DNA of 64,000 nucleotides from Parashewanella spongiae (lineage in GTDB: Bacteria > Pseudomonadota > Gammaproteobacteria > Enterobacterales > Shewanellaceae), in assembly GCF_004358345.1 (NCBI RefSeq), contig NZ_CP037952.1:2480001-2544000 (forward strand). The letters run 5' to 3'. Shown one piece after another: positions 5,707-51,235 of this stretch (its first letter is position 1; the number at the start of each line of letters is the position of its first letter). Position numbers and translations under genes: made by a program. The notes under the pieces were generated by a model. That model was not told where the DNA came from and searched no databases. It was given only the letters and a program-made list of their open reading frames with translations.

Positions 5707-5732
5707 ATAACTAATTTAAAATCTTATATAAA

Positions 5733-5808: not shown

Positions 5809-5830
5809 ATCGAATATATATTTATAAATA

Positions 5831-5906: not shown

Positions 5907-5938
5907 ATATACTTATATATGTTAACAAATCAAAAGAA

Positions 5939-25397: not shown

Positions 25398-26649
25398 TAG
25401 GGCAAACGGGTCAAAAATAAGCAATCAAATTTGATCGTTTGCCAAACTATAGCGATCGTGGTTTATAATAGTCTTTGCTTGTTAATTTCTATGAAAACTA
25501 CGACAATCAGCAACTTTTTTGATGGCCTACCCGACCCTCGTATGTCACGAACTTTACATCATCCTCTGATTAACATTATAACCATTACTCTATGTGCGGT
25601 TATCTGTGGCTGCGATAATTTCAATGCTATTGAAGAATATGGGAAATCGAAGAAAAAATGGTTCGAAACTTTTTTAGATATGCCTCATGGCGTCCCAAGC
25701 CATGATACCTTTAACGATGTTCTCAACCGCTTATGTCCTAAGGCTTTTCATGCCGCTTTTATAGCGTGGGCGCAATACCTTTGTACAATTGACGAAGATA
25801 TCATTCCTCTTGATGGCAAGACACTGAGAAGAACTCTGGATAAAGTGAATGAAGTTCCAGCAATACATATCGTTAATGCTTGGTCAGTAAAAAATAATCT
25901 TTGCTTAGGGCAAATGAAAGTTGACGGTAAAAGCAACGAGATAACAGCCATTCCTAAGTTGTTAGAGCTCCTCGATATTAAAGGGGCAACCATTACCACT
26001 GATGCAATGGGTTGCCAGTTTAAAATTGCCGATAAAATCATTGAAAAAAAAGCTAATTATATTTTCGCCCTTAAAGGTAGCCAAGGTGAGTTCTTTGAAG
26101 ATATCAAATTATTTTTAGATACAGAACTCGAGTCTAGATTTAAAAAAATTCACTGCGATATGTTTGAGGAAGTCGATAAAGATCACGGTCGAATTGAACA
26201 AAGAAAAGTTTGGGTCACGTCTGACGTAGAGTGGCTCAGAAAACGCCATAGTAGATGGTCAAGCTTAAACAGCATTGTAGTCGTAGAATCTACTAGGGAA
26301 CAAAAAGGGATAGAGAAGACCATGGAAAGACGCTATTACATCAGTAGTCATTTGAAACCTAAAGCTGAGTTTATCTCAAATGCAATACGTTCTCATTGGT
26401 TTGTTGAAAATAAACTCCACTGGCAACTGGATGTAAGCTTTGATGAAGACTCATGTCGGTTAAGAAGTGGAAACGCAGCAGAGAATATGGCTATCATGAA
26501 TAAAACAGCACTCAACATGCTGAAAAATGAGAAAACAGCAAAAGTAGGAATAAAAAGCAAACGTTTAAAAGCGGGCTGGGATGAAGAATATTTGATGAAG
26601 GTATTAACTGTGGGCAAACTGGCTGTCTAATTTAGACCCGTTTGCCCTA
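25398..26649 (+). mobile_element. Second ISAs1-family element with 10-bp target duplication (1252 bp)
   Basis: Ends TAGGGCAAACGGGTC and GACCCGTTTGCCCTA are a perfect 15-bp inverted repeat. The direct repeat TATATATCCA lies at 25388-25397 and 26650-26659, while the undisrupted copy 1 has it once. This is a textbook recent insertion into the other ISAs1 transposase gene. Confidence 0.95.
25491..26630 (+). CDS. ISAs1-family (H-repeat type) transposase
   Basis: About 379 residues from ATG 25491 (the frame extends upstream to a TTG inside the terminal repeat, which is unlikely to be used). It has the FFDGLPDPR start typical of H-repeat/ISAs1 proteins, IIPLDGKTLRRT, TITTDAMGCQ, KDHGRIEQRKVWV and SHWFVENKLHWQLDVSFDED. 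It is clearly a different subgroup from the 376-residue transposases here. Intact and flanked by perfect target repeats, so probably active recently. Confidence 0.94.
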   Translation: MKTTTISNFFDGLPDPRMSRTLHHPLINIITITLCAVICGCDNFNAIEEYGKSKKKWFETFLDMPHGVPSHDTFNDVLNRLCPKAFHAAFIAWAQYLCTIDEDIIPLDGKTLRRTLDKVNEVPAIHIVNAWSVKNNLCLGQMKVDGKSNEITAIPKLLELLDIKGATITTDAMGCQFKIADKIIEKKANYIFALKGSQGEFFEDIKLFLDTELESRFKKIHCDMFEEVDKDHGRIEQRKVWVTSDVEWLRKRHSRWSSLNSIVVVESTREQKGIEKTMERRYYISSHLKPKAEFISNAIRSHWFVENKLHWQLDVSFDEDSCRLRSGNAAENMAIMNKTALNMLKNEKTAKVGIKSKRLKAGWDEEYLMKVLTVGKLAV

Positions 26650-32643: not shown

Positions 32644-33253
32644 GAGCGCCACGAAGCGCTTTATTCTGTTGCGGGATTTGTCTCAACGTATACGCAGCCA
32701 AGCGATTACATGGCCATAAACCAGAGACAGCAACGTTATTATTTATAATAAGTCCATCAGGTTGAAACGTACCTGACGGGATAATTACCAGTTCATCCCG
32801 AAATCTGACGGGCATGCATAATGGGTAACCGCTATGACATGAAGCCCTGTGACAAAGGCCTTGAATAAAGGTTGAGATGCAATGTAGGCCGCAGCATCAA
32901 GCGAATTCAGTTAAGCGTCGTAAATCAAAAAATGAAGATGGGGAGTCTTTCCTAGTTGACGAACCCTGACACAAACAGAGAAGCAACTGGTAAATGCATC
33001 TGTTTGATCTTCCGGCGTAATATGAAGTGGCATGTATTGAAGGAAATAAAGTGAACGTGGGAGAGCCTGAGTGTTGGAAGGTAGTGACTTCCACTATCCG
33101 AATATAAGGTAAACCGAAATTTCAGATAGGGCGCTCAGGCAGTCGGATGAGCCCATAGTACCGTTAACCGTGAAGACAACATAACTTTACATCAGGGAAG
33201 GGGCTCAGTGTTACACCCGTTTTTTAACGTAACTTTTGAGGTGAAATTGCCAT

Positions 33254-34534
33254 ATGGCTAACACTCCAGTAAATATCAGAATATTACAGCGAAAACTTTA
33301 CTTACGCTCAAAGCTTAACTCGGAGCTTCGATTTTACAGCTTGTACGATAAACTCAGTCGCCTAGATATACTCGAAGAAGCCTATCGACGATGCAAAGCC
33401 AATAAAGGCGGAGCAGGAATTGATGGCATCACATTCAGTTATCTAGAGCAGCAAAAGAAAGTTGTTGCGCTGTTAAAAGAAATTCAAACTCAATTACAAC
33501 AGAAAAACTATCGACCTAGCCCAGTCAAACGAGTAGAAATACTCAAAGACAACGGCAAAACGCGGAAACTTGGGATCCCGATAATCAGTGACAGAATTGT
33601 GCAAATGGCGATGACAATAGTGATGCAACCCGTCTACGAACCTCATTTACATGAACACAGTTATGGTTATCGTCCATGTCGAAGCGCCCAGCAAGCGGTA
33701 AAAGTCATTGAAATGAGCCTAAAACAAGGCTACCAGCACGTACTCGATGCTGACTTGAGTGCCTATTTCGATACCATCCCGCACGCTAAGTTGATGGCAA
33801 AAATAGAAAGGCGAATAAGCGACAGCAGCTTTCTGAGTTTGCTGAAAAGCTTTATCAAAGCGCCCATCAGCATAGAGACGGTCAACGGGAAATGGCGAAT
33901 AGAAGCAAGCCGATGTGGCACTCCGCAAGGCGGAGTTATCTCTCCACTACTGGCTAACATCTATCTCAACGATTTCTGTTTGAAAATACACGAAAAAACA
34001 CCGTGTAAAATCGTTACCTATGCAGATGATTTTGTTGTACTTCATAAGCAAACCTACACACAAGAGCAACTGGACTGGATAACACAGCAATTAAGTGATG
34101 AAGGTCTGAAGCTAAATCAAAGTAAAACCCACTGTGTGGATATGGGAAAGCTGATGAATGAGTTTGATTTCCTCGGTTTTAACTTTCAACGGATCACAGG
34201 CCTCATCAAAGGCACCAGTTACATCAAGATACAGGCGTCTAAGAAGAGCCAAACAAAGCTGAAAAATAAAATCAGAGACATAGTGAAACACCGAACCTCA
34301 AATACACTTGGCGTACTGATAAATAAGGTTAATCAAGTTCTGAGGGGATGGAAACACTATTTTGGTGGGATAGGTTATCCCAGAGGTGTATTTTTCAGAA
34401 TAAATGGATTTGTAGTAAACCGGTTCTATCGCTGGCATCGTCGCTTAAGTCAACGTCGAAGCAAGTATCTATCACGAGGTGCTTACGAAAAATTACGCCA
34501 AGCTGGTCTTGAGTATTTACCCACGACAAGATGA
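33254..34534 (+). CDS. ltrA: Group II intron reverse transcriptase/maturase
   Basis: The 426-residue intron-encoded protein drives splicing and retrohoming of its own intron. Reverse transcriptase blocks are intact: NKGGAGIDGITF, LGIPIISDRIVQMA, HSYGYRPCRSAQQA, DADLSAYFDTIPH, RCGTPQGGVISPLLANIYL and the active site TYADDFVVLH. The C-terminal maturase (X) domain (GWKHYFGGIGYPRG...FYRWHRR) is present. There is no HNH endonuclease domain, as in several bacterial intron classes. Start at ATG 33254 has a GAGGTG site. Confidence 0.95.
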   Translation: MANTPVNIRILQRKLYLRSKLNSELRFYSLYDKLSRLDILEEAYRRCKANKGGAGIDGITFSYLEQQKKVVALLKEIQTQLQQKNYRPSPVKRVEILKDNGKTRKLGIPIISDRIVQMAMTIVMQPVYEPHLHEHSYGYRPCRSAQQAVKVIEMSLKQGYQHVLDADLSAYFDTIPHAKLMAKIERRISDSSFLSLLKSFIKAPISIETVNGKWRIEASRCGTPQGGVISPLLANIYLNDFCLKIHEKTPCKIVTYADDFVVLHKQTYTQEQLDWITQQLSDEGLKLNQSKTHCVDMGKLMNEFDFLGFNFQRITGLIKGTSYIKIQASKKSQTKLKNKIRDIVKHRTSNTLGVLINKVNQVLRGWKHYFGGIGYPRGVFFRINGFVVNRFYRWHRRLSQRRSKYLSRGAYEKLRQAGLEYLPTTR

Positions 34535-34571
34535 TAAGCAAAGTGAAGGGGCTGAGAGAAGTGTAACAACA

Positions 34572-34605
34572 GAGCCGTGTGAGGGAAAACCTCATGCACG
34601 GAATC
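34572..34605 (+). ncRNA. Group II intron domain V
   Basis: A 34-base hairpin beginning GAGCCGTGTGAGG with a GAAA-type tetraloop (GGAAAACC) and closing CACGGAATC. It keeps the catalytic AGC triad position and the size of domain V, located 37 bases after the RT stop. Confidence 0.88.
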
Positions 34606-34654
34606 GAAGAGGGGCTGCTGGATAAGCGATAGCGAAGCCAGTAGCCTACTCTAC

Positions 34655-35415: not shown

Positions 35416-38393
35416 CTAGTATCAAGTTAATGGGTAGACTCGCTCAATACTATCATTCCCGAGTTGAATTTATCCTCGATAAACTCAAGTCCAAATTCAT
35501 CTTTGAGAAAACTTATCATTCCATTTTTTAAGGTATTATTGCCATGGTATCCAGTTATGATCGATGTTATCTTGGTTTCATTGTTTTTTTTGTGGTAACA
35601 AAATAATAGTTTTGCGAAAGCTAATGGAACCCCTTGAATATGTGTATCATTTCCTGAATGTTCTTCGAAGATTTTATCCATATGCAAATCGATACAATGA
35701 TTCATTAAGCCAACATTTTTTTTATATATTCCTTGTGTTATCCCTTTATCAATCATGCTTGCGAAATTATTTTTTTCCAGCGGCGCAAGTTGAGCATGCA
35801 TTTGTGAAAGAGTACTCATGTTACATTTGTTCATTATTTTTTCTAAATACCATATTCCAGTGTCTAATTGCTTAGCCTTAATGCATGCTTTAATAAAGGC
35901 ATTGTAAATGGCAACATCAGGCTTGATGCCCCATTGTTGCATTAAGCTGGCTGTATCGCCATCTCCCAACACCAATGATTCGGCTTCTGTAAAACGTTCC
36001 ATTTCAGCGCAGGCAGTCAGCAAATTCATACAGGTGATTGAATCTGCCTTTAGTGGTAGATGAGGTGCCATCAAGGGTTTGTCACCACACACCAGTTGCC
36101 AAGCACTATCAAACTGGCCAGTTTTAGCGCATACCGTTATAAAGGCGCTGTAAATGGCAACATCAGGCTCGATGCCCCATTGTTGCATTAAGCTGGCTGT
36201 AGCACCATCGCCCAACACCAATGATTTGGCCTCTGCATAACGCCCCGCTTCAGCGCAAGCGCTAAGCAAATTCATGCAGGTGATTGAATCTGCCTTTAGT
36301 GGTAGATGAGGTGCCATAACGGGCTTACCACCACACACCAGTTGCCAAGCACTATCAAATTGGCCAGTTTTAGCGCATACCGTGATAAATGCGCTGTAAA
36401 TGGCAACGTTAGGCTTGATGCCCCATTGTTGCATTAAACTGGCTATAGCTATATCGCCCAACACCAATGATTTGGCTTCTGCATAACGCCCCGTTTCAGC
36501 GCAAGCGCTCAGCAAATTCGTGCAGGTAATTTGATTAGCTTTTAATGGCAAATGAGGTGCCATCATGGGCTTATCACCACACACCAGTTGCCAAGCACTA
36601 TCAAACTGGCCCGTTTTAGCGCATACCGTGATAAAGGCACTGTAAATGGCAACATCAGGCTTGATACCCCACTGCTGCATTAAGCTGGCTGTAACTGTAT
36701 CGCCATCGTCATCGCCCAACACCAATGATTTGGCTTCTGTAAAACGCTCCATTTCAGCGCAGGCCGTCAGTAAATTAATACATGTGATTTGATTGGTTTT
36801 TAATGCCAAATGAGGTGTCATCATGGGCTTATCACCACACACCAGTTGCCAAGCACTATCAAATTGGCCAGTTTTAGCGCATACCGTGATAAAAGCATTG
36901 TAAATGGCAACATCAGGCTTGATGCCCCATTGTTGCATTAAGCTGGCTGTATCGCCATCTCCCAACACCAATGATTCGGCTTCTGTAAAACGTTCCATTT
37001 CAGCGCAGGCAGTCAGCAAATTCATGCAGGTGATTGAATCTGCCTTTAGTGGTAGATGAGGTGCCATCACGGGCTTATCACCACACACCAGTTGCCAAGC
37101 ACTACCAAATTGCCCCGTTTTAGCGCATACCGTGATAAAGGCGCTGTAAATGGCAACGTTAGGTTTGATGCCCCACTGCTGTACTAAGCTAGCTGTATCA
37201 CCATCACCCAACACCAATGATTTGGCTTCTGCATAACGCCCCGTTTCAGCGCAGGCGGTCAGCAAATTTATGCAGGTGATTGAATCTGCCTTTAGTGGTA
37301 GATGAGGTGCCATCACGGGCTTGTCACCACAAACCAGTCGCCAAGCGCTATCAAACTGGCCCGTTTTAGCGCATACCGTGATAAAGGCATTGTAAATGGA
37401 AACATTAGGCTTGATACCCCATTGCTGCATTAAGCTGGCAACTGCTGCATTGCCTAACACTAACCCTTTAGCATCTGAAAAATTTAAATTTAACTTAATT
37501 AATTTCAGTAATAATGTGCATGTTTTCGATTCATAGGACGATTTAAATCGTGTTATGTCACTAAAAACGCCGTCGAAATTAGATGAATGGCTGTCAGAAA
37601 ACTCGGCCGCTTTGTGTAACAATTTATGGATTAATCTTATGTCCCATGATGTTTCCATGACCAGTTTGTCGTTTTTTAGGGTGTGAATGATTTCAATAAG
37701 CTGCGAAAGTTTAGCGCAACCACCAATTAATACATTTAACTCAATACCCAGTTGATTTTTGCTTTTCTGTTTAAGTTTCCACGAGTGAATAAGCGCACTG
37801 GTTTGAGTAAAAAAGGGATCAGGGGAGGAAGGTGGTTGCTGTATTTGCTTGGTATATCTAGTGCTCGATTTTGGAGTAATGGAGCGAGGCTCAGTTGCAA
37901 AACGTCGACAAGCATTACTTGGTTTCTTACAATAATGAGCCTCTTGTGTGCGAAAGTAAGAGCGAGTCGACGATGACTTACTGTTGAAAAAATCATACAG
38001 CTTTTGTCTATCGGTTTTGCTTAATAGTTGATAACACTGTTGTAACTCTTCATTATCATCAAACCTTGAAACCTCAAAGTTCAGATATAATACGGCTTCG
38101 CTTGGGTGTTCTTGGAGACTTTTAAGCATGAATCTATATATTGATTGTTGCTCAGCAGGAGTGCGCACTGTCGCCATCACATTACTCAATAAGTGAGGGA
38201 ATTAACAAGCTAAGAAATAACGCACTGAAAAGATAAATACAAAAATATTCAGCTTTAAGGCATTCTATAAATGTATAACAGAAAATTTTCCACCGCACAG
38301 GGGGGAGTCGTTTGTCGTTTGGTAGCTCATAGTTGAATCTCAGATTCAAAAAAAATAATGAAATTGAGCGTAAATTGGTTTTGTTTCTCCCTT
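35416..38393. repeat. Large inverted repeat, left arm (PPR locus)
   Basis: From CTAGTATCAAGTTAATGGG through the whole 916-residue gene and about 215 bases upstream, this arm matches 42178-46156 in inverted orientation. It is about 1 kb shorter because it has four fewer repeat units. Similarity ends at GGTTTTG (38393). Confidence 0.88.
35427..38177 (-). CDS. Bacterial PPR-like repeat protein, 6 double units
   Basis: About 916 residues from ATG 38177 (a TTG four codons upstream is possible). Residues ~1-235 are a unique helical, Ser-rich N-terminal domain. Then six units of ~82 residues follow, each a pair of PPR-like helical hairpins: a 40-residue motif (VAIYNAFITVCAKTGQFDSA...) and a ~42-residue motif (ITCMNLLTACAE...WGIKPD). 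A half unit and a ~130-residue unique C-terminus end the protein. PPR proteins bind RNA one base per motif and are mainly organellar in eukaryotes. Residue 5 is N or S in the first motif and I/M/T in the second, and the last residue is D or N; these are the PPR specificity positions. No signal peptide. Function unknown. Confidence 0.82.
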   Translation of the reverse strand: MATVRTPAEQQSIYRFMLKSLQEHPSEAVLYLNFEVSRFDDNEELQQCYQLLSKTDRQKLYDFFNSKSSSTRSYFRTQEAHYCKKPSNACRRFATEPRSITPKSSTRYTKQIQQPPSSPDPFFTQTSALIHSWKLKQKSKNQLGIELNVLIGGCAKLSQLIEIIHTLKNDKLVMETSWDIRLIHKLLHKAAEFSDSHSSNFDGVFSDITRFKSSYESKTCTLLLKLIKLNLNFSDAKGLVLGNAAVASLMQQWGIKPNVSIYNAFITVCAKTGQFDSAWRLVCGDKPVMAPHLPLKADSITCINLLTACAETGRYAEAKSLVLGDGDTASLVQQWGIKPNVAIYSAFITVCAKTGQFGSAWQLVCGDKPVMAPHLPLKADSITCMNLLTACAEMERFTEAESLVLGDGDTASLMQQWGIKPDVAIYNAFITVCAKTGQFDSAWQLVCGDKPMMTPHLALKTNQITCINLLTACAEMERFTEAKSLVLGDDDGDTVTASLMQQWGIKPDVAIYSAFITVCAKTGQFDSAWQLVCGDKPMMAPHLPLKANQITCTNLLSACAETGRYAEAKSLVLGDIAIASLMQQWGIKPNVAIYSAFITVCAKTGQFDSAWQLVCGGKPVMAPHLPLKADSITCMNLLSACAEAGRYAEAKSLVLGDGATASLMQQWGIEPDVAIYSAFITVCAKTGQFDSAWQLVCGDKPLMAPHLPLKADSITCMNLLTACAEMERFTEAESLVLGDGDTASLMQQWGIKPDVAIYNAFIKACIKAKQLDTGIWYLEKIMNKCNMSTLSQMHAQLAPLEKNNFASMIDKGITQGIYKKNVGLMNHCIDLHMDKIFEEHSGNDTHIQGVPLAFAKLLFCYHKKNNETKITSIITGYHGNNTLKNGMISFLKDEFGLEFIEDKFNSGMIVLSESTH

Positions 38394-38805
38394 GCCAATT
38401 TGGTCGGTTGACGCATTTCTGTCCAAGAATGTTTTTATTTGTTATATGGCACAGACATAAGTACCTAACTAAAAGTTATCTCATATTTTGAATGATAATC
38501 ATCCAAAATAGTTTCGACTGCTTTTTGAGTTTGGAGTAAGTTTCGTAAGCGCTAATGGATAACCACTCGTATTTGTTTTTCGCCATAGAATTTCGATGGC
38601 ATTAAGTTCGGGGGAAAGGGATCAATCTTGTGGGGTATTCATTGCAGTATGTATAACTATAATCAACGGCAAGGGAAGTTTTAAAGAAAAATAAAGTTGC
38701 ACACTATTTGATCGGTGAGGGCAGGTGAACTTCATTTATTGGTTCAGCTAAAATTCAGTATAAGAATTATACTCTAGTTGCCTGTATAGCATCACAGAAA
38801 ACATT
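38394..38805. other. 412-base gap with an IS630 remnant
   Basis: Between the left inverted arm and the central gene. A decayed IS630 C-terminus lies at 38485-38645 (listed). Beyond it I see only AT-rich sequence that should hold the promoter of the gene at 38806. Confidence 0.5.
38485..38645 (-). pseudogene. IS630-family transposase C-terminal remnant
   Basis: Minus-strand codons read SPELNAIEILWRK, shift frame once, then KYEWLSISAYETYSKLKKQS and a stop after IIIQNMR. This is the SPELNPIE...W glutamate region that ends IS630 transposases. It is only the last ~50 residues, so a relic. Confidence 0.75.
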
Positions 38806-41800
38806 ATGGCAACCAATTCCTCCTCACTTTCTAATGTTATACAAGCATACTTATCACTTGATGAAACAGATCCTGTTGTGGTAGAAAGTGCGGCAAAAGT
38901 GGTTGCTCAAATCGAGACGGCTGTGATTAATGAGCGCCGCACTTGTGCCGATTTTGGCGGTGAAAATCCGATTCAGTGGAAACCAGATTGGGAACAAGAG
39001 TTTTCATATGGCTGTTACTTCAAAGTATTTAAAACCTTACCTGAAATTCCAGAAGTGTCGCCTATTTGGCAGAAAATTGGGATTAAGGAATCGCACCTTG
39101 CAGAATTGCTACATGGAATGCGTGGTGGAAATTATTTTGAAGTACATAGTAAATGTTCAACGCATGTAAGAAATTTGAAAGATGAATCTGCTTTGGAGTC
39201 AGACAAAAAACTAACTGGTTTTCTCTATCAACTAATAATTGTTTGTCAACATAAGATTAACCCTGAGGATGTTCTAACCAAGTTTGACAGTGATGTGAGG
39301 GGGGAAAACTCTTTTCGAAATTACTGTCTTCACTTGGCAGAAATATTTCGTTTTGGCAGTCCGTTATTCGCCAAATGTAAGCATTTACAGCTGGATTATT
39401 TGAAACGTGCAGCAGAGATCGGGAATACATTTGCATTTAATGAGCTTTTTAAAATTCAAGTCATTAAACCAGAAAGTGTCAGCTGTTATCTACCACACGA
39501 AATGACGAGGTTGCTTGCGCTCACAGCTAAACAAATTGAATTAGGCAAACTTGAACAGAACAATTATTACCCCGAAGTTAACTTACTAATTGAAATTTTA
39601 ATAATAAATAATAAATGGAGACTAACTACCGAAAATTTAGTGGAACAAAAACGAGTTTTTCAGGCACAAGTAGAATCGAAAATTTCAAATTTTATAGAGC
39701 ATGAGATACTGACAGTTAAGTGCTTAGCATTATATGTGGTAACCAGCCCTGAATTTGGTCTCTGTGATTTTACAATTGCTAAACAAATACTAACACGCAT
39801 AAATGAATTGCTTCTAGACAGAAGTTTAACTGAGGTTGAACAATGCATATTAAGTTATTGGCAAGAAAATATCGGTCTTCATACAAACTCATTCCCCAAT
39901 ATTCACCTCGATAGGCTAATAGAACTAACACTGGACAATAGAATGCCGTCAGCTCTATACAGTGTAGGGCGTTTTTGTTTTACACAAGGTGATATTGAAA
40001 CATATAAACAAGTTGTTATTCAAATTTCACCGTCACTATCAAACTTAAAACAAGAGTTACTTTTATCTCCCAGTACTATCCCTATAATTATTGATTGTGT
40101 AAAAGTCATAAGCAAAATTAATACAGCTCATAAAAAACGGCATAATCCAACGAGGAGGACCCTTACCTTTCTTGATAGTATGTTAGACAATGGTCTTTCG
40201 ATGCAAAATAAAGCCTGTATGTATTCATCACTGATGGAAGCCCATCGAGAGCTAAGTCGAAAAAAGGGTAGCACTGGAAGGCATTATAGCAAGCAAGCCG
40301 TACATAGATTAAAAGATAGAGTTGGAGACTTTAAGACCAAAAGAGCTAATGAACTGAACCATTCTTTAGATCCAATTTATCGAGCGTTCGCAATCACATT
40401 TATGACACAGAAAGAAGCTGAACAGTATGTAGATCGAAAACAAATGCTCAACCCTTTAGTACAGTTTGATAGAGTCAATAATCTACTTTTTCTGTTTGCT
40501 TGCATTGGTGATCGACTCGGTGAAGATACACACACAATACTTCAGCATATTGGAATACTTGCAAATGAATTTGCACATGTTCCGGCACCCAATGAATTGC
40601 ATGTATCATGTCAGGATATTAATTTCCATGCCTTGCTTGAACCTTCGATTTCCACACTTTTTGATTATTTCAAAACTCGGCCAGAAGAAGCAAAAGCCTT
40701 ATATCAATTTTACTTGTTTCACCGAAAACATGTAGGCTTAGCAACGGGTAAAGAAATAAATTGTAAAGCTGAGCCATTATTCAAACAATTGTCGTCTTCA
40801 AGTTCTCCGGAGGCTTTGGGGGGGAGAGCACCTAAATATAAAAAAAAACGAAGTGCAAGTATTCAGCGAACAGCAAAGCTAAGTTTAGAGGACAAAATTA
40901 AGATGTTAACAATGACAGTTGTGCAAGCGTTAAAGGATGTACAAAGTCAATGTGGAACACAATCTAACTCTAGTGAATTAATAAAAGAGAATCTGGTGCA
41001 ACTACGAAAAGACCTTAACTTTGTATGCTTGCAAAATAGAAAAGAAAACTGGTTAAACACTGATGAAATTGTTGCAGAGATAATGAGTACTTTACGGGTA
41101 TTGCCTGCAAATAAGAAATTTCGAGAGTGGAAGACATTTTTGGGCAGTTTAATGAAAGCTGAAAAAGTGGGTCATTTTTTAAATAGCGTACTTTTATCAT
41201 CAAGTAGTCAACCTGTTGATGTAGCTATCGATAATGAGACAGTTAAGCAAGAATTAGTTTTGGCGTTGCTTTCAGTAAAAATAACAATTTCAGAGGGTTG
41301 TGAGGAAGAAGTTTGTTCAATCTTAGCTGAGAGCATGCATGATTGGCCTGAATCCATTATTGAGTTTTTTTGTGTGGCAGAGAATTATCCTCTACTTGAA
41401 CTTACTGTTTCAAAGAATACTGGAAACCACATGCTTCCTTTTGTACTTGTTGAAAGGCGAACCGAGATCTTAAATAAAATGACTGTCGAGCAGCAAAATC
41501 AAATTTGGCATTTGACGGAATTATCACTAGGTACTCGTAAACAAATTTTTTCGTTCTTATCTGAGTCGAATTTTAATTATAATGAAGCACTCACTTGGGT
41601 GTTGAATGAACACACTTTTTCGAGTACTACAGAAGCGCTAGAGCTGGTAAAATCGATTCCACTAAAAAAAATGATTCTCATGATGTCTAAGTCGAGTAGT
41701 GCAGACGTTGAATTATTAGAAAGCAAAACTCGGGTGTTTAAAGAGGAACGAAAACAATGCCTTGATCGTAGAGCAAGAACGCTTAACCCTCATGCTTTTT

Positions 41801-42069
41801 CTTCTCATGTAAATGAGATAATACAAGAAACCAAAAGCAAAGCTAACAACAAAGCTGTATTCATTAGTGGTATAAGCTTTTTAATCAACTTTAGTGAAGA
41901 ATTTGTTGGATATTATCCGGAGTTAAAGACTCAACTGGATGAAAGGTTAAAATTTATGGCTCAAGCCTATGTAACTGATATAGAAAACTTGGTGCTAGAA
42001 GAGAAAACTTGTTACCCAAACAGAATATTCTATATGTGCTGTAAGGTGTTTTTAGCTATGGGATGTTGA
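38806..42069 (+). CDS. 1087-residue protein of unknown function, centre of the PPR locus
   Basis: I recognise no domain. The sequence is predicted mostly alpha-helical and cytoplasmic, with no signal peptide or membrane span. A basic, Ser-rich hinge at residues ~660-690 (FKQLSSSSSPEALGG...KYKKKRSAS) divides a ~655-residue N-terminal half from a ~400-residue C-terminal half rich in short helices. Composition (low GC, many Leu/Glu/Lys) is like its PPR neighbours. It lies exactly between the two inverted PPR arms, and inversion by recombination between the arms would flip it. It could be a partner of the PPR proteins or an independent effector; nothing in the sequence decides this. Confidence 0.7.
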   Translation: MATNSSSLSNVIQAYLSLDETDPVVVESAAKVVAQIETAVINERRTCADFGGENPIQWKPDWEQEFSYGCYFKVFKTLPEIPEVSPIWQKIGIKESHLAELLHGMRGGNYFEVHSKCSTHVRNLKDESALESDKKLTGFLYQLIIVCQHKINPEDVLTKFDSDVRGENSFRNYCLHLAEIFRFGSPLFAKCKHLQLDYLKRAAEIGNTFAFNELFKIQVIKPESVSCYLPHEMTRLLALTAKQIELGKLEQNNYYPEVNLLIEILIINNKWRLTTENLVEQKRVFQAQVESKISNFIEHEILTVKCLALYVVTSPEFGLCDFTIAKQILTRINELLLDRSLTEVEQCILSYWQENIGLHTNSFPNIHLDRLIELTLDNRMPSALYSVGRFCFTQGDIETYKQVVIQISPSLSNLKQELLLSPSTIPIIIDCVKVISKINTAHKKRHNPTRRTLTFLDSMLDNGLSMQNKACMYSSLMEAHRELSRKKGSTGRHYSKQAVHRLKDRVGDFKTKRANELNHSLDPIYRAFAITFMTQKEAEQYVDRKQMLNPLVQFDRVNNLLFLFACIGDRLGEDTHTILQHIGILANEFAHVPAPNELHVSCQDINFHALLEPSISTLFDYFKTRPEEAKALYQFYLFHRKHVGLATGKEINCKAEPLFKQLSSSSSPEALGGRAPKYKKKRSASIQRTAKLSLEDKIKMLTMTVVQALKDVQSQCGTQSNSSELIKENLVQLRKDLNFVCLQNRKENWLNTDEIVAEIMSTLRVLPANKKFREWKTFLGSLMKAEKVGHFLNSVLLSSSSQPVDVAIDNETVKQELVLALLSVKITISEGCEEEVCSILAESMHDWPESIIEFFCVAENYPLLELTVSKNTGNHMLPFVLVERRTEILNKMTVEQQNQIWHLTELSLGTRKQIFSFLSESNFNYNEALTWVLNEHTFSSTTEALELVKSIPLKKMILMMSKSSSADVELLESKTRVFKEERKQCLDRRARTLNPHAFSSHVNEIIQETKSKANNKAVFISGISFLINFSEEFVGYYPELKTQLDERLKFMAQAYVTDIENLVLEEKTCYPNRIFYMCCKVFLAMGC

Positions 42070-42177
42070 TCTTTTTAGGGGATGTAAACCCAAACCCCAG
42101 ATTTTTTCCTCAGCTGTACGGATAACAATAGCTAGTTGAAATATAAATAATTTGGGTGTAGTTACCTCACTTTTGGA

Positions 42178-45100
42178 CAAAACCAATTCAGGCTCAATTT
42201 CATTATTTTTTGAGTCTGAGATACAACGATGAGCTACCAAACGGCTCCCTGTGTGGTCGATAATCTTCTGTTATACATTTATAGAATGCCTTAAAGCTGA
42301 ATATTTTTGTATTTATTTTTTTAGTGCGTTATTTATTAGCCTGTTAATTCACTCACTTATTGAGTAATGTGATGGCGACAGTGCGTACTCCTGCTGAGCA
42401 ACAATCAATATATAGATTCATGCTCAAAAGTCTCCAAGAATACCCAAGCGAAGCCGTATCCTATCTAAACTTTGAGGTTTCAAAGTTTGATGATGATGAC
42501 GACTTACAACAGGGCTATCAAAGATTAAGCAAAACCGATAGACAAAAGCTGTATGATTTTTTCAACAATAAATCATCGGCGACTCGCTCTAACTCTCACA
42601 CACGAGAGACTCATTATTGTAAGAAGCCAAGTAATGCTTGCCGACGTTTTGCAACCGAGCACCGCTCCATTACTCCAAAATCGAGCACTCAGTATCCCAA
42701 GCAAATACAGCAACCACCTTCCTCCCCTAATTCCTTTTTTACTCAGACCAGTGAGCTTATTCACTCTTGGAAACTTAAACAGAGAAGCAAAAATAAACTG
42801 GGTATTGAGTTAAATGCATTAATTCGTGGTTGCACTAAACTTTCTCAGCTTATTGAAATCATTCACAGCCTAAAAAACGACAAACGGGTCATGGAAACAT
42901 CATGGGACATAAGGTTAATCCATAAATTGTTGCACAAAGCGGCCGAGTTTTCTGACAACCATTCATCTAATTTCGACGGTATTTTTAGTGACATAATACG
43001 ATTAAAATCGTCCTATGACGAGAAAACATGCACGCTATTACTGAAATTAATTAAGTTAAATTTAAATTTTTCAGATGGCAAAAAATTGGTGCTAGGCAAT
43101 GCAGCTGAAGCCAGCGTAATGCAACAATGGGGTATCAGGCCTGATGTTGCCATTTACAATGCTTTTATCACGGTATGCGCTAAAACAGGCCAATTTGATA
43201 GTGCTTGGCAACTGGTGTGTGGTGATAAGCCCTTGATGGCACCTCATTTGTCATTAAAGGCTAATCAAATCACCTGCATTAATTTGCTGACGGCCTGCGC
43301 TGAAACGGAGCGTTATCCAGAAGCCAAGTCATTGGTGTTGGGCGATGGCGCTACAGCTACAGCCAGCTTAATGCAACAATGGGGCATTAAGCCTAATATT
43401 GCCATTTACAGCGCCTTTATTAAGGTATGCGCTAAAACGGGTCAGTTTGATAGTGCTTGGCAACTGGTGTGTGGTGATAAACCCGTGATGGCACCTCATC
43501 TACCACTAAAGGCAGATTCAATTACCTGCATGAATTTACTGGCTGCCTGCGCTGAAATGGAGCGTTTTATAGAAGCCAAATTATTGGTGTTGGGCGATGG
43601 CGACACAGCTACAGCTACAGCCAGCCTAATACAACAATGGGGCATCAAGCCTAATGTTGCCATTTACAATGCCTTTATCACGGTATGCGCTAAAACGAGC
43701 CAGTTTGATAGTGCTTGGCAACTTGTGTGTGGTGACGAACCTGTGATGGCACCTCATTTGCCATTAAAAGCCAATCAAATCACCTGCACGAATTTACTGA
43801 GCGCTTGCGCTGAAATGGGGCGTTATGCAGAAGCCAAATTACTGGTGTTGGGCGATGGCGATATAGCTACACCCAGCTTAATGCAACAATGGGGCATCAA
43901 GCCTGATATTGCCATTTACAGTGCCTTTATCACGGTATGCGCTAAAACGGGCCAGTTTGACAGTGCTTGGCAACTGGTGTGTGGTGATAAGCCCACGATG
44001 GCACCTCACTTGTCATTAAAGGCCAATCAAATCACCTGCCTGAATTTGCTGAGCGCTTGCGCTGAAACAGGGCGTTATGCAGAAGCCAAGTCATTGGTGT
44101 TGGGTGATGGTGATACGGCTACAGTTACAAGCTTAATGCAACAATGGGGTATCAAGCTTGATGTTGCCATTTATAGTGCCTTTATCACGGTATGCGCTAA
44201 AACTGGCCACTTTGAGAGTGCTTGGCAACTGGTGTGTGGTGATAAGCCCGTGATGGCTCCTCATCTATCATTAAAGGTAGATTCAATCACCTGCACGAAT
44301 TTGCTGACTGCCTGCGCTGAAACGGGGCGTTATGTCGAAGCCAAATTATTGGTGTTGGGCGATGGCGATACAGCCAGCTTAATGCAACAATGGGGTATCA
44401 AGCCTAACGTTGCGACTTACAGCGCCTTTATCATGGTATGCGCTAAAACCTGCCAGTTCGATAGTGCTTGGCAACTGGTGTGTGGTGATAAGCCCGTGAT
44501 GGCACCTCATTTGTCATTAAAGGCCAATAAAATCACCTGCCTGAATTTGCTGACTGCTTGCGCTAAAATAGAACGTTTTATAGAAGCCAAATCATTGGTG
44601 TTGGGCGGTGGCGATACAGTTACACCCAGCTTAATGCAACAATGGGGCATCAAGTCTGATGTTTCCATTTACAATGCTTTTATCACGGTATGCGCTAAAA
44701 CTGGCCAGTTTGATAATGCTTGGCGACTGGTGTGTGGTATTAAGCCGGTGATGGCACCGTATTTGCCATTAAAGGCCAATCAAATCACTTGCATGAATTT
44801 GCTGACTGCCTGCGCTGAAGCGGGGCGTTATGCAGAAGCCAAATCATTGGTGTTGGGCGATACAGTTACAGCTAGCTTAATGCAACAATGGGGCATCAAG
44901 CCTAATATTGCCATTTACAGCGCCTTTATTAAGGTATGTGCTAAAACGGGTCAGTTTGATAGTGCTTGGCAACTGGTGTATGGCGATAAGCCCGTGATGG
45001 CACCTCATCTACCACTAAAGGCAGATTCAATCACCTGCACGAATTTGCTGACGGCCTGCGCTGAAGCGGGGCGTTATGCAGAAGCCAAATCATTGGTGTT

Positions 45101-46156
45101 GGGCGATGGTGACACAGCTACAGCCAGCTTAATGCAGCAATGGAGCATCAAACCCAATGCTGCCATTTACAATGCTTTTATCACGGTATGCGCTAAAACG
45201 GGCCAGTTTGATAGTGCTTGGCAACTGGTGTGTGGTGATAAGCCCTTGATGGCACCTCATTTTCCATTAAAAGCCAATAAAATCACCTGCATTAATTTGC
45301 TGATGGCCTGCGCTGAAGCGGAGCGTCATGCCGAAGCCAAATTATTGGTGTTGGGCGATGTCGATACAACCAGCTTAATGCAACAATGGGGCATTATGCC
45401 TAATGTTGTCATTTACAATGCTTTTATCACGGTATGTGCTAAAACTAGCCAGTTTGATAGTGCTTGGCAACTTGTGTGTGGTGACGAGCCTGTGATGGCA
45501 CCTCATCTACCACTAAAGGCAGATTCAATCACCTGCCTGAATTTGCTGACGGCCTGCGCTGAAATGGAACATTTTACAGAAGCCAAATCATTGGTGTTGG
45601 GCGATGGCGACACAACTACAACCAGTTTAATGCAACAATGGGGCATCAAGCCTGATGTTGCCATTTACAATGTCTTTATTAAAGTATGTATTAAAGCTAA
45701 GGGATTTGACACTGGAATGTGGTATTTAGAAAAAATAATGAACAAATGTAACATGAGTAATCTTTCACAAATACATGCTCAACTTGCGCCGCTTGAAAAA
45801 GATAATTTCGCAAGCATGATTGATAAAGGGATAACACAAGGAATATATAAAAAAAGTGTTGGCTTAATGAATCATTGTATCGATTTGCATATGGATAAAA
45901 TCTTCGAAGGACATTCAAGCAATGGTACACATATTCGAGGTATTCCATTAGATTTCGCAAAACTATTATTTTGTTACCACAAAAAAAACAATGAACCTAA
46001 GATAACATCGATCATAACTGGATACCATGGCAATAATACGTTAAAAAATGGAATGATAAGTTTTCTCAAAGATGAATTTGGACTTGAGTTCATCGAGGAT
46101 AAATTCAACTCAGGAATGATAGTATTGAGCGAGTCTACCCATTAACTTGATACTAG
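42178..46156. repeat. Large inverted repeat, right arm (PPR locus)
   Basis: Mirror image of 35416-38393. It begins CAAAACCAATTCAGGCTC and ends AACTTGATACTAG. The upstream 190 bases and the unique N- and C-terminal coding regions match the left arm closely; the number of ~246-base repeat units differs (10 versus 6). Confidence 0.88.
42372..46145 (+). CDS. Bacterial PPR-like repeat protein, 10 double units
   Basis: About 1257 residues from ATG 42372, a paralogue of the protein at 35427-38177 with the same unique N-terminal (~235 residues) and C-terminal (~130) domains. Between them are ten ~82-residue double PPR-like units plus a half unit, 21 motifs in all. Reading motif residue 5/last: N/N, I/N, S/D, M/N, N/N, T/D, S/N, L/D, S/D, T/N, S/N, L/D, N/N, M/N, S/D, T/N, N/N, I/N, N/D, L/D, then N. 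The variation at these positions mirrors the PPR RNA code, while most of the unit is constant. Repeat linkers vary in length (DTATATAS versus DTAS). Function unknown. Confidence 0.82.
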   Translation: MATVRTPAEQQSIYRFMLKSLQEYPSEAVSYLNFEVSKFDDDDDLQQGYQRLSKTDRQKLYDFFNNKSSATRSNSHTRETHYCKKPSNACRRFATEHRSITPKSSTQYPKQIQQPPSSPNSFFTQTSELIHSWKLKQRSKNKLGIELNALIRGCTKLSQLIEIIHSLKNDKRVMETSWDIRLIHKLLHKAAEFSDNHSSNFDGIFSDIIRLKSSYDEKTCTLLLKLIKLNLNFSDGKKLVLGNAAEASVMQQWGIRPDVAIYNAFITVCAKTGQFDSAWQLVCGDKPLMAPHLSLKANQITCINLLTACAETERYPEAKSLVLGDGATATASLMQQWGIKPNIAIYSAFIKVCAKTGQFDSAWQLVCGDKPVMAPHLPLKADSITCMNLLAACAEMERFIEAKLLVLGDGDTATATASLIQQWGIKPNVAIYNAFITVCAKTSQFDSAWQLVCGDEPVMAPHLPLKANQITCTNLLSACAEMGRYAEAKLLVLGDGDIATPSLMQQWGIKPDIAIYSAFITVCAKTGQFDSAWQLVCGDKPTMAPHLSLKANQITCLNLLSACAETGRYAEAKSLVLGDGDTATVTSLMQQWGIKLDVAIYSAFITVCAKTGHFESAWQLVCGDKPVMAPHLSLKVDSITCTNLLTACAETGRYVEAKLLVLGDGDTASLMQQWGIKPNVATYSAFIMVCAKTCQFDSAWQLVCGDKPVMAPHLSLKANKITCLNLLTACAKIERFIEAKSLVLGGGDTVTPSLMQQWGIKSDVSIYNAFITVCAKTGQFDNAWRLVCGIKPVMAPYLPLKANQITCMNLLTACAEAGRYAEAKSLVLGDTVTASLMQQWGIKPNIAIYSAFIKVCAKTGQFDSAWQLVYGDKPVMAPHLPLKADSITCTNLLTACAEAGRYAEAKSLVLGDGDTATASLMQQWSIKPNAAIYNAFITVCAKTGQFDSAWQLVCGDKPLMAPHFPLKANKITCINLLMACAEAERHAEAKLLVLGDVDTTSLMQQWGIMPNVVIYNAFITVCAKTSQFDSAWQLVCGDEPVMAPHLPLKADSITCLNLLTACAEMEHFTEAKSLVLGDGDTTTTSLMQQWGIKPDVAIYNVFIKVCIKAKGFDTGMWYLEKIMNKCNMSNLSQIHAQLAPLEKDNFASMIDKGITQGIYKKSVGLMNHCIDLHMDKIFEGHSSNGTHIRGIPLDFAKLLFCYHKKNNEPKITSIITGYHGNNTLKNGMISFLKDEFGLEFIEDKFNSGMIVLSESTH

Positions 46157-46246: not shown

Positions 46247-47726
46247 CAATGGCACTAACTTAAGATTTAGCTGAAGGCTTACTAATTGAACAATAGAGAG
46301 TAAATCATACAGATTAAGGTTTTTCTAGTGTCACGCCATGAATACTACAACTCGCCAATTCTTCAATGATGCCCCAGAATTGTTACGTCGCTTTGCTCAA
46401 ACGGAAGAAGATGAACTTTCTTCAATTCTCACTCTGCAAGATTTAGAAGATTTTCAAAAAGATAATACTCAAAGAGTACGCAAATATCCCGCTTGCCACA
46501 CTCTTTCGCTTTTCATGAAGCAAGTTGCCAGTGAAAACAAGTCTTGTCGTTGCACACTAATCAGTGACGCTAGAGATCAAATTGCTATAGGTCGAGAGAA
46601 AAACAGCACAATTACAGGTCCCTACTGCAAAGCAAGAAAACGTTTATCTCCAGAGTCAATTAAATCGCTATTGAAGAAATCAGGAAAAAACTTAGATGAA
46701 GCGATTCAAGGGAAATACTTATGGCATGGCCGTAGAGTGCTATTAACTGACGGCTCAACACTATCTATGCCTGATACGCACGAGAACCAAGCCCAATTCC
46801 CTCAACCTAAATCACAAAAAGAAGGGCTGGGCTTTCCTCAGCTGCGGATTTTAGTGTTAATTTCTTTGGGTAGCGGTGCAGTCATTGACTCGGCTGTTTC
46901 ACCTTGTAAAGGGAAAGGTACTGGCGAGCAGGCACTATTAAGAAGTATGCAGTTAGACTTGAAACAAGGTGACATTGTGCTGGGAGATGCTAATTTCGAA
47001 AACTACTTTGTTCTTGTAGGACTAATGGGGTTAGGCGTTGATGCTGTTTTCGAAAAAAACGGAGCCAGAAATGTCGATTTCAGAACCTGTGAAGAAAAGC
47101 TGGGTAAGCGAGATGGTTTATTTAAGCTAATTCGTCCATCCTGTCCAGAATGGATGACCCCAGAGGATTACGCTCAAGTGCCAGAAGAGCTTATCGTCAG
47201 AATGGTAGGAACAAAGAAACGTATCATTGTTACCACGCTCACGGATAAAGAAGTCTATCCGAAGCAAGATATTATTGATTTATACGTTTCACGATGGCAT
47301 ATCGAGTTGGATTTTAGGTCAATCAAGACCATGATGAAAATGGATATTTTAAGGTGTGGTAGTCCAGATATGGTGCGTAAGGAAATTGATGTTCATTTGT
47401 TAGTTTACAACATGATAAGGGCACTTATGTGCCGAGCGGCAGAAAAAAAAAGGAATATCGCCTAGAGAGGCAAGTTTTAAAGCCGCACATGACGCATTAC
47501 AAGATTTTCATATATTACTTTTGCAAGCCACCGAAGGGATCATTGACACTTTATTGGATGTGATAGCAGATATTATCGGCGAGCATATCGTTGGCAATCG
47601 CCCAGGGAGAAAAGAACCGAGAGCAAAGAAAAGGCGACCGAAACCGACACCAAGGTTACAACATTCAAGAAAGCAAGCACGTAGGCTTAAGGTATATCAG
47701 AAGTAATTCTTAAGTTAGTGCCATTG
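46247..47726 (+). mobile_element. IS4-family insertion sequence (1480 bp)
   Basis: CAATGGCACTAACTTAAGA at 46247 and its exact inverse at 47708-47726 bound the element. The 10-bp direct repeat AGCTTTAGAT lies at 46237-46246 and 47727-47736. End type and duplication length fit IS4. Confidence 0.95.
46338..47706 (+). CDS. IS4-family transposase (frameshift at an A9 run)
   Basis: The first frame (375 residues, to 47465) has the IS4 DDE signature: LLTDGSTLSMPDT (first Asp), VLGDANFENYF (second) and the YREK-type block YVSRWHIELDFRSIKTMM with the glutamate. At the A9 run 47443-47451 the frame ends early. With eight As it would continue as GISPREASFKAAHD to 47706, adding about 80 residues with a basic tail. 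Slippage on the run could make the full protein; otherwise the tail is lost. All catalytic residues precede the shift. Confidence 0.88.
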
Positions 47727-47842: not shown

Positions 47843-48976
47843 ATGAGCACCGTCCTTCAAGTAAAAGATAACGCAAAATTTGTTAATTTGTACATTGCTT
47901 TTGAACTTAGCAGTAAAACTTGGAAGCTTGGCTTTTCAAATGGTGAAAAAAAGAGAGTCAAAACGATTGATTCCCGAGACTGGAAAGCCCTACATCATGA
48001 AATAGCCTTAGCAAAAGAAAAGCTATTCTGCGTTGAAAACTGCAAAGTCATTAGCTGTTACGAAGCAGGTAGAGACGGATTCTGGATACACAGAGCGTTA
48101 ATTAAAGACGGCATCGAAAATCATGTGATTGACTCAGCCAGTATTGAAGTCAGCCGAAAACAGAAGAAAGTCAAAACCGATAGAGTTGATGTGATTGCTT
48201 TGCTCCGCTTACTGATGCGTTATCACTCTGGAGAGCAAGAAGCTTTAAATATCATCAATGTTCCAAATGTAGAAGCTGAAGATAAGCGACGAATTAACCG
48301 AGAGCGAGAACGATTAGTAAAAGAGCGTGGCAGTCACAGCGCACGAATTAAGTCACTTCTGTGTTTGCATGGTATCAGCGTGGAAAATATCTCTAAACTA
48401 AAGGGGAAAGTTAATCAACTTAAGACGGCGGTTCTCAATAAGCCTTTACCGACAGATTTAGTGACGGAAATAGAGCGAGAACTTGATAGGCATGAAATTG
48501 TCGACAAGCAAATTAAAGCAATTGAGAAATTACAAAAACAACGTGTTCTTGATGACTGTGATGACGCATCGCAAAAAATTAATCAGCTCATGCAGCTTAA
48601 AGGCGTAGGCTGGCAATCGAGCTGGGTATTAGTAACAGAGTTTTTCCATTGGCGAGAATTTAAAAACGCTAAACAAGTGGGAGCTTGTGCAGGAATGACA
48701 CCAACGCCTTACGATAGTGGTGACAGTCAAAGAGAGCAAGGCATTTGCAAGTCAGGTAATCGACGAATACGAAAGATTATGGTTGAACTCAGTTGGTTTT
48801 GGTTACGGTATCAACCCAAATCAGAATTGAGTTTATGGTTCGAACAGCGTTTCGCTCATGGCAGTAAACGAATGAGACGCATCGGCATTGTTGCTATGGC
48901 ACGTAAACTTCTTATCAAACTGTGGAAGTATTTAGAGCATGGAGAAGTGCCATCAGGTGCAACGATGTCACTTTAA
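47843..48976 (+). CDS. IS110-family recombinase/transposase
   Basis: This 377-residue DEDD-type recombinase has an N-terminal RuvC-like domain starting FVNLYIAFELSSKTWKLGF, where Glu stands at the usual first Asp, as in a known IS110 subgroup. YEAGRDGFWIHRAL and KTDRVDVIALLRLL follow. The C-terminal Tnp2 domain has the serine region (LKGVGWQSSWVLVTEF, GACAGMTPTPYDSGDSQRE, GNRRIRKIMVELSWFWLRY). A clear AAGGGGAA ribosome site precedes the ATG. IS110 elements move using a bridge RNA encoded in their noncoding ends. Confidence 0.93.
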   Translation: MSTVLQVKDNAKFVNLYIAFELSSKTWKLGFSNGEKKRVKTIDSRDWKALHHEIALAKEKLFCVENCKVISCYEAGRDGFWIHRALIKDGIENHVIDSASIEVSRKQKKVKTDRVDVIALLRLLMRYHSGEQEALNIINVPNVEAEDKRRINRERERLVKERGSHSARIKSLLCLHGISVENISKLKGKVNQLKTAVLNKPLPTDLVTEIERELDRHEIVDKQIKAIEKLQKQRVLDDCDDASQKINQLMQLKGVGWQSSWVLVTEFFHWREFKNAKQVGACAGMTPTPYDSGDSQREQGICKSGNRRIRKIMVELSWFWLRYQPKSELSLWFEQRFAHGSKRMRRIGIVAMARKLLIKLWKYLEHGEVPSGATMSL

Positions 48977-49627: not shown

Positions 49628-51235
49628 ATGGAAGATTCATTTCAAGTTACACCACCACCACCACCTTATAATTTTAATATCCCAACAGCTCCAGTTCTTA
49701 ATGACAGAGAGCAAAATCATACTTCACACTGTTCGTTTTCGAATAGTAAGGAGGCACAGGTTCACTATGATTGTAATCAAGTTCCTCCACCAGATCCTGT
49801 TGCGGTTTTCCCTTATAATCCAGCCGTTGCAGGAGGGTATCCAAATCACAATAATATCGTTGGAGATGGTGTACAAACTTTATACTCTCAACATCAAGTT
49901 GAGCAGCCACTTAGAGCCTTGCATCCGCTTTCATCCTCTTCAAGACAAGGTTATCCTCCAGCGACTCCTTTTCAAGCTTCACTTCAGCATGTCGGGCAGT
50001 CACAACTACAGCAGCAAGATCAGTTTATTAAATCTGAAGCCACTGTAACTTCAGAATTTCAAGAAGTTAGTCACTTTGAGTTTGATCTAAATAAAGCTAA
50101 GAAAGAGGATGTTAAGAAAAGTGCTTTCATGCACAGGATTGAATCTGGAGTTGCACAATTAAGCAAGGGGGAAGTTAAATCTGCCATTGGAAAGATGTTT
50201 GGCGGGAGTGTAACTGAAACACAAAAAACTAAAATACAGAGTAAAGCAGGGATTAAAGATATAGGGAAAGTTGAACCTACGGATAGAGTAAATTTATTTT
50301 CAGAATGTTTTGATTTATGGTTACAATCACCGGAAGCTGAGTTGAAGCACTTGAGTGCTGCGCTGGCTATGATTGATAAAAAAGGACAGAAAGGTGAATT
50401 GGCCAATTTAGTTGGGCTACTGAAGCATCCTCATACAGAAGATCTTAATAGAAAAAATGTTCAAGTAGCAAGTTTGCAGTCTGAATTGTCTCAGTTAAAA
50501 GGACACAACAGTCAGCTTTCTCATCAAGTTGGGCAATTACAGCAGCAGCTTAAACATTCTAAAGCTGAATTTGCATCTTATAAGGACAAACTCTCAGATT
50601 CTCAATTAGCTTATGAATGTCTAAGTAAACACTCTATTGACAAAGACGAGCAGCTAGTGAAATTACTAGGACTCTTGAGTACAAAAGAATCTGAGAATTT
50701 GGAGCTTAAAGCTGAAAAGCTAACTCTACAGCAGGCTCCTACAGTAAGTGTTGTGCCTTCTTCGGTATCGCAACAGCCAGCAGCTGCACCAACAAATATC
50801 AGCGTACATGTTTCTCCATCTTTTAATCAATCTACAATGCAAGTTGCTCCTCAGGCAACTTTAACTAAAAATCAACCTACTTTGAGTCTACCTGAATGGA
50901 ACGATCTTCAAATATTGAAAAGCAGATATAAAAATATTTGGGCATCTAGAGATGAAAACTTTAAGTATTTATTAAGCTTTATTAATAAATACACGGCAGT
51001 GATTGAGATTTTTTGTACTCACGTAGGAGCAAAGCCACACATGGTTGCGGGTAAAATTAGGTCTCAATCGGGGAATGTTGGATATGCAATGCTTAGTATT
51101 GTTGATTTCTTGGCGGGAACTCCAAAACCGTTTTCTGTATACGTTGAAGCAGCGGCAAGTGCAGAAGGGAAGGATCCAAGTGTTAATGAAGATGTCTATC
51201 CATATTATGTACAATTAGATAGACTTTTTAAATAA
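49628..51235 (+). CDS. Unknown multidomain protein, effector-like
   Basis: 535 residues with a strong ribosome site (GGAGG, five bases before ATG). Residues 1-150 are Pro/Gln-rich and probably disordered (PPPPPYN, PPPDPVAVFPYNP). A helical domain follows at ~165-265, ending in FDLWLQSPEAELKHLSAALA, whose W-L...L..AL pattern recalls the last helices of a Death-fold domain; this resemblance is by eye only. Residues ~275-370 form a coiled coil (SLQSELSQLKGHNSQLSHQV). After a Ser/Pro/Gln linker, a C-terminal helical domain (~425-535) has YKNIWASRDENFKYLLSFI. No signal peptide or membrane helix. The architecture suggests a host-interacting protein; no family is recognised. Confidence 0.7.
   Translation: MEDSFQVTPPPPPYNFNIPTAPVLNDREQNHTSHCSFSNSKEAQVHYDCNQVPPPDPVAVFPYNPAVAGGYPNHNNIVGDGVQTLYSQHQVEQPLRALHPLSSSSRQGYPPATPFQASLQHVGQSQLQQQDQFIKSEATVTSEFQEVSHFEFDLNKAKKEDVKKSAFMHRIESGVAQLSKGEVKSAIGKMFGGSVTETQKTKIQSKAGIKDIGKVEPTDRVNLFSECFDLWLQSPEAELKHLSAALAMIDKKGQKGELANLVGLLKHPHTEDLNRKNVQVASLQSELSQLKGHNSQLSHQVGQLQQQLKHSKAEFASYKDKLSDSQLAYECLSKHSIDKDEQLVKLLGLLSTKESENLELKAEKLTLQQAPTVSVVPSSVSQQPAAAPTNISVHVSPSFNQSTMQVAPQATLTKNQPTLSLPEWNDLQILKSRYKNIWASRDENFKYLLSFINKYTAVIEIFCTHVGAKPHMVAGKIRSQSGNVGYAMLSIVDFLAGTPKPFSVYVEAAASAEGKDPSVNEDVYPYYVQLDRLFK

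Follow-up and report, generated by a model that had tools for sequence, protein, structure and literature searches.

The window analyzed here, a stretch of 64,000 nucleotides (nt) from the Parashewanella spongiae genome (contig NZ_CP037952.1, positions 2,480,001 to 2,544,000), contains two genes on opposite strands encoding pentatricopeptide repeat (PPR) proteins with a putative SMR-like C-terminal tail; both belong to a large family in which the predicted RNA-recognition residues vary from copy to copy. Each array is built from two-motif units, a first motif of 40 amino acids (aa) with lysine at residue 13 (motif A, K13) followed by a second motif of 42–48 aa with glutamate at residue 13 (motif B, E13), giving a repeat period of 246–252 nt in both arrays. 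Code pairs below (e.g., ND) give residue 5 followed by the last residue of a motif. In both genes the likelier start is a conserved ATG four codons past the TTG. In window positions, the features are as follows:

35427..38189, minus strand: first PPR protein gene; 920 aa if counted from TTG, with ATG at 38177 the predicted start (MATVRT...)
42360..46145, plus strand: second PPR protein gene; 1261 aa if counted from TTG, with ATG at 42372 the predicted start
35893..37439, minus strand: tandem A/B unit array, first gene; A codes from N to C terminus ND SD NN SN SD SD
43095..45679, plus strand: tandem A/B unit array, second gene; A codes from N to C terminus NN SD NN SN SD SN NN SD NN ND
35430..35711, minus strand: C-terminal SMR-like domain (IDLH, TGYHG), first gene; predicted model
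45861..46142, plus strand: C-terminal SMR-like domain (IDLH, TGYHG), second gene; fold assigned from similarity to the model of the first gene
37983..38177, minus strand: N-terminal helical domain, first gene; AlphaFold model of the 920-aa protein
42372..42566, plus strand: N-terminal helical domain common to the family, second gene; fold assigned from similarity to the model of the 920-aa protein
38178..38384, minus strand: conserved 5' region, first gene; 86% identical to that of the second gene
42175..42371, plus strand: conserved 5' region, second gene; at least 40 genome places, 86–100% identical

The 166-residue tails of the two genes are 90% identical, and a low-confidence linker (residues 71–123 in the 920-aa model) follows the N-terminal domain. 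Four Pfam PPR profiles (PF13812, PF13041, PF12854, and PF01535) score over cut-off in both proteins, and an NCBIfam search placed TIGR00756 over cut-off as well. Among sequences with solved structures, designer PPR proteins come closest, led by dPPR10 (E = 1.2e-22). In that alignment the motif core aligns and the extra residues fall in the linker; the variable residue of the family motifs stands on motif residue 5, and the D or N ahead of each helix is the last residue of the preceding motif, corresponding to positions 5 and 35 of the designer proteins. The AlphaFold model of the 920-aa protein is a predicted superhelical helix–turn–helix solenoid, for which Foldseek returned matches to PPR10 and dPPR. 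The original prediction, made from the letters alone, had described both proteins as near-identical units of two PPR-like hairpins; the open reading frames (ORFs), arrays, and unit and motif boundaries are as it described, and the profile search and structural model that it proposed as checks both agree, confirming the two window proteins as predicted PPR solenoids.

These genes are members of a much larger set. The genome, a single contig of 5,468,749 bases, gave 122 matches to the 1261-aa protein; the window and 44 loci outside it yielded 52 ORFs that carry PPR or tail signals, including the two window genes. They comprise 47 main-family ORFs and five divergent ones (L045 twice, L057_9068, L059_2046, and L067). 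Of the 47 main-family ORFs, 41 are complete at both ends (N-terminal start and tail); these 41 span 592–1430 aa and total 142.6 kb (2.6% of the genome), and the other six are fragments. The N-terminal domain occurs at 48 genome places, in PPR genes, their remnants, or an ankyrin fusion. Homology extends upstream in 42 of 43 compared stretches (median extent approximately 200 nt, including 15 coding bases) and downstream in 36 of 43 (medians 26–122 nt), and a DNA search in which 40 of 79 candidates were scored placed the 5' region at at least 40 genome places. Because these flanking 5' and downstream regions are homologous, the copies look like dispersed cassettes. A search for a sigma-70-type promoter in the shared 5' region returned one match on the opposite strand, equal to shuffled sequences.

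Site variability was assessed over 356 A and 345 B motifs parsed from the main family genome-wide, excluding each ORF's final motif, motifs beside an unparsed neighbor, one 45-aa B motif, and a few mislabeled by the patterns. In the A motifs, residue 5 is N (189), S (164), or C (3), the last residue is N (180), D (166), C (6), or S (4), and residue 13 is K in 343. In the B motifs, residue 5 is M (150), L (87), T (56), I (48), or V (4), the last residue is N (192), D (145), or another residue (8), and residue 13 is E in 334. The residue choices first read from the two window genes thus carry over to the whole genome: N or S at A5 in 353 of 356, M, L, T, or I at B5 in 341 of 345 (V in the remaining four), and N or D as last residue in 346 of 356 A and 337 of 345 B motifs. 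Ranked by second-residue frequency, the last residue (0.466) and residue 5 (0.461) lead the A motif, with the next column at 0.191 and 2 of 40 positions above 20%; the chance that two positions named beforehand would be the top two of 40 is 1 in 780 if ranks are random. The corresponding order in B is the last residue, then B1, then B14, B27, and B5, with B9 also variable; the variability of B1 is explained by its tight linkage to the last residue of A (N–Q 145 and D–S 144 of 356). The case that variation is confined to code positions is very strong in A and fair in B. The length of the B motif changes mostly in two-residue steps (42, 44, 46, 48), for instance in the array of the second gene; judged by eye, the steps come from a short Thr–Ala repeat in the linker.

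The structures and binding tests described in PMC4837458 link SN and TN with A, SD with G, ND with U, and NN with either U or C; K13 is given there as required for RNA binding. Alignment to residues 5 and 35 of the designer proteins, with the code roles taken from that paper, upholds the identification of the variable residues as the plant PPR code positions. The A pairs are NN (106), SD (87), ND (76), SN (74), and others (13), such that 343 of 356 are canonical, and residue 5 and the last residue share just 0.03 bits. As parsed, with unparsed motifs missing from the strings, the 41 full-length proteins give 41 different code strings of 2–12 A motifs each; their predicted letters are Y (103), G (84), U (72), and A (71), with 13 pairs outside these codes. 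Shared runs between proteins, averaging 2.37, barely exceed those of shuffled strings (2.28). TN or TD occurs in 54 of 348 B motifs, and these could read a base; B motifs may otherwise act as spacers. The "modular sequence-specific RNA-binding repertoire" originally suggested gains far more support from the genome-wide set than two genes could give, but canonical pairs are found in A motifs only. Judged from sequence, RNA addressing by the A motifs is very probable.

At the level of whole units, 337 of 340 full units differ across the 240 bases compared. For 314 of 340, the closest unit sits in a different gene, a pattern that old exchange or shared ancestry would be expected to leave. The last residue of A hardly changes in near pairs (2 at most), and recent pairs are few. 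Diversifying selection is not claimed from the ratio of nonsynonymous to synonymous change (dN/dS): nonsynonymous change (pN) at the A code codons was 0.194 and 0.214, near a roughly estimated synonymous level of 0.173 differences per codon, and two-state codons saturate.

The tail model of the first gene finds its best structural matches in the plant PPR-SMR protein pTAC2 and SMR domains, with MutS2 structures on ribosomes also among the matches. An LDXH-like motif is present in 41 of 41 tails (IDLH 36, LDLH 3, INLH 2). Profile alignment with hhalign gave E = 0.07 against SmrB-type domains (28 of 31 domains) and E = 1.5e-4 (probability 51%) against the tail of L087; a PDB profile search with full-length alignment rows returned mostly PPR arrays and was uninformative on the tail. 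On the strength of the model, the family tail is probably SMR-type. L087 itself (C1 near 2117242) is a separate PPR protein, of which 564 aa were seen, with LDLH and TGFNQG motifs, a PPR_3 score of 36.6 bits over cut-off, and an Smr score of 17.1 bits under cut-off; it is possibly a more ordinary PPR-SMR-like relative. A short frame at L052:2089-2589 (minus strand), approximately 6 kb from a full copy, encodes a tail-like domain (NLH, TGKNNG) without a PPR array.

Relatives in other genomes are sparse. PPR_3 was found in 2 of 97 genomes from genus to order, the P. spongiae genome and one of the same genus, and three further members of the genus gave no PPR_3 match; across the class, 5 of 369 genomes (this one included) gave matches, 3 of which pass the cut-off. 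Other contigs encode relatives at 36–47% identity to the query (P0035, P0036, P0041, P0044, P0049, P0050, P0057, and P0058). In seven related proteins of other contigs the A/B alternation is kept, with K at A13 in 30 of 36 and E at B13 in 32 of 32; the last residue of A is N (18), D (17), or G (1), and A5 is N (18), S (7), T (5), G (4), C (1), or A (1). No encoded relative was found in phage records, none of the 68 IMG/VR stretches that fitted a pattern was confirmed as a relative, and plasmids gave one distant match, in Rahnella (21.5% identity). PMC2824747 counts 12 bacterial PPR proteins known in 2010, in addition to two in Legionella longbeachae, and PMC7848895 reports PPR in sponge-associated Thaumarchaeota; in the open-licence literature, the titles and abstract openings among the matches listed report no code-varied bacterial PPR repertoire. 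An assembly artefact was considered for the multiple copies and is ruled out by the single 5.47 Mb contig, by copies on other database contigs, and by relatives in Parashewanella curva and elsewhere.

Several genes bear on where the proteins might act. In the P. spongiae genome, the type III export gate HrcV scores 866.6 bits against a cut-off of 692.25 (one marker gene), and two genes encode the type VI sheath VipA (one marker). A PPR–ankyrin fusion is encoded at L067 of the same genome (P0040; Ank_2 E = 7.2e-55, PPR_3 E = 2.3e-12), the ankyrin protein P0043 bears a piece of the family N-terminal region, and P0050, a relative on another contig, includes an F-box-like segment below cut-off. 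Because of these ankyrin and F-box-like fusions, together with the genes for a type III export gate and a type VI sheath, eukaryotic host RNAs appear to be the likeliest targets. The original observation was real but understated: it took in neither the SMR-like C-terminal domain nor the number of copies nor these fusions. The main rival to host delivery is a role inside the bacterium, with the proteins binding or cutting bacterial transcripts, phage RNA, or transposon RNA as regulators or as RNA-level immunity. SMR-type domains do act in bacteria, as the ribosome-bound MutS2 matches illustrate, secretion of family proteins is a presumption, and the transposases and group II intron in the window are possible targets. 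Conversely, PADLOC (E 0.01) assigned 0 families to the two PPR proteins and the 1087-aa ORF between them, the phage and IMG/VR searches gave no relative, and the ankyrin and F-box-like fusions point toward eukaryotic cells; we regard an intrabacterial role as rather improbable. Delivery into eukaryotic cells seems the likelier use, and action in the host is an evenly balanced prospect.

Taken together, we propose that the 41 full-length PPR proteins are sequence-specific RNA binders, each differently addressed via its A-motif pairs and likely acting through the SMR-like tail, a proposal that in its entirety we would put at about an even chance. In this scheme, A motifs, with K13 and a canonical code, would each read one base, 5' to 3', and B motifs, with E13 and a mostly hydrophobic residue 5, would mainly space the A motifs, specifying approximately every second base; the C-terminal tail would cut or remodel the addressed RNA. 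The proteins would be delivered as effectors, most likely against eukaryotic host RNAs, and their variation would let the bacterium stock many RNA addresses. A bolder version is doubtful, though conceivable: the 41 proteins would form an injected, programmable arsenal against RNA, with every A motif taken from a complete four-base code, B spacers, units reshuffled between dispersed cassettes to yield new RNA addresses, and a tail cutting host (perhaps organelle) RNA, which would make the set an RNA equivalent of transcription activator-like (TAL) effectors.

A number of observations, in both arrays and tails, weigh against the proposal of addressed RNA binders. Lysine at A13 is found in just 6 of 14 motifs in P0037 and P0039 of P. 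curva, and in 1 of 16 in the distant own copies L045 and L059, where A5 (G, N) and the last residue of A (N, D) vary. Most B motifs (M, L, or I at residue 5, E at 13) are without canonical code pairs. The earlier statement that surrounding positions are mostly fixed, and the per-site comparison proposed with it, hold for A, in which the two code positions are the top two of 40 columns, but are weaker in B, where the variability of B5 is matched by that of B14, B1, and B27. Many alpha-solenoids bind proteins, and the arrays could be protein-binding solenoids in which code-position variation serves protein partners, a reading consistent with glutamate at B13 and the ankyrin fusion; it is unlikely, given that A variation centers on the positions of the RNA code and uses code residues and that K13 is retained in 343 of 356.

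Nonsynonymous changes fall at the four code codons in 1 of 12 cases in near unit pairs with up to 4 differences, 8 of 62 at 8, and 36 of 312 at 12; the last exceeds an expectation of 5% (p = 3.4e-6 by a binomial test on nonindependent pairs). No enrichment is seen at 4 differences, and that at 8 and 12 is modest. Neutral repeat turnover, with drift and recombination of units without function, could account for variation at B positions 14, 27, and 9, for nearest units that mostly lie in other genes, and for the six fragmentary ORFs. However, both ends and an open frame are kept in 41 of 47 main-family ORFs, many columns are near-invariant with two-state balance limited to N/S and N/D, and the same pattern recurs in other genomes; neutral turnover is therefore very improbable.

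With respect to the tail, the TGXG motif is replaced by TGYHG (40) or TGFHG (1 of 41), one residue longer, and the D of LDLH has disappeared from divergent copies. A Pfam search of the tail gave no match, and the Smr profile recovered SmrB (L086), a weak L087, and a third hit at E = 0.78 in this genome, with no family tail. Code-based RNA binding could accordingly occur without cutting, the tail being a binding or dimerization module and the protein blocking, stabilizing, or guiding RNA; this alternative overlaps our proposal up to the tail. It would fit the departure from TGXG (motif roles as given in PMC6662315), the failure of sequence searches to place the tail in Smr, and the lost aspartate; on the other hand, the H of LDxH and the TG are kept in 19 of 19 aligned tails, which suggests that the site matters, and binding without cutting seems to us a possible but minority outcome.

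Elsewhere in the window, the 1087-aa ORF between the PPR genes (38806..42069, plus strand) is not a family member; it had no match in Pfam, NCBIfam, or PADLOC and one distant genomic relative (C1:4094368-4095024, 25% identity over query residues 166–388). Transposase genes lie at 25431-26630, 46338-47465, and 47843-48976 (DDE_Tnp_1 twice, IS110 type), the second of which is approximately 190 bases behind the 1261-aa PPR gene. A group II intron with reverse transcriptase and maturase domain occupies 32755-34654 (plus strand), and five near-identical tRNA-Asn (GTT) genes stand in tandem at 5525-6014. Three ORFs of exactly 535 aa each (18034-19641, 23502-25109, and 49628-51235) are possibly one repeated element; Pfam matches of the third are all under cut-offs.

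TAL effectors are also built of near-identical modules, in which a variable residue pair sets a nucleic-acid address, and form variable repertoires in one genome. The family here has an unrelated fold, RNA rather than DNA as predicted target, and an injection that is only presumed; the likeness is analogy, not kinship. With P-class PPR proteins (PPR10, designer dPPR) the family shares the helix-hairpin solenoid, variable residues 5 and last, and K13 (in A motifs), but it is bacterial, its units are near-identical within and between proteins, and it alternates 40-aa A with 42–48-aa B motifs, the latter with E13 and a hydrophobic residue 5. Plant PPR-SMR proteins (SOT1, GUN1, pTAC2/PAP2) similarly place a C-terminal domain after the PPR tract, with pTAC2 the best fit to the model, and carry an LDxH-like motif; the family differs in TGYHG for TGXG, no Pfam Smr match, 41 full-length code-varied copies, and an extra N-terminal domain. 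PLS-class proteins also alternate motif kinds, some of which, according to PMC13041630, read RNA poorly without a partner, whereas the alternation here is of two motifs with other lengths, and no E or DYW domain was seen. PPR proteins of L. longbeachae, Ralstonia, Rhodobacter, and sponge-associated Thaumarchaeota establish PPR in prokaryotes, and the available portions of PMC2824747 and PMC7848895 do not describe them as a diversified, code-varied multigene repertoire.

PPR proteins are known for addressing RNA in the organelles of plants and other eukaryotes. The prokaryotic examples are described in those portions as isolated eukaryotic-like proteins, whereas 41 full-length members occur here in one bacterial genome; the novelty would lie in a bacterial repertoire of code-varied PPR proteins that carry an SMR-like tail. 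If the proposal is correct, the family would offer a natural library from which the PPR code could be read, and it would supply programmable RNA binders or cutters. It would also represent a bacterial RNA-addressed protein repertoire whose addresses could be derived from sequence and directly tested.
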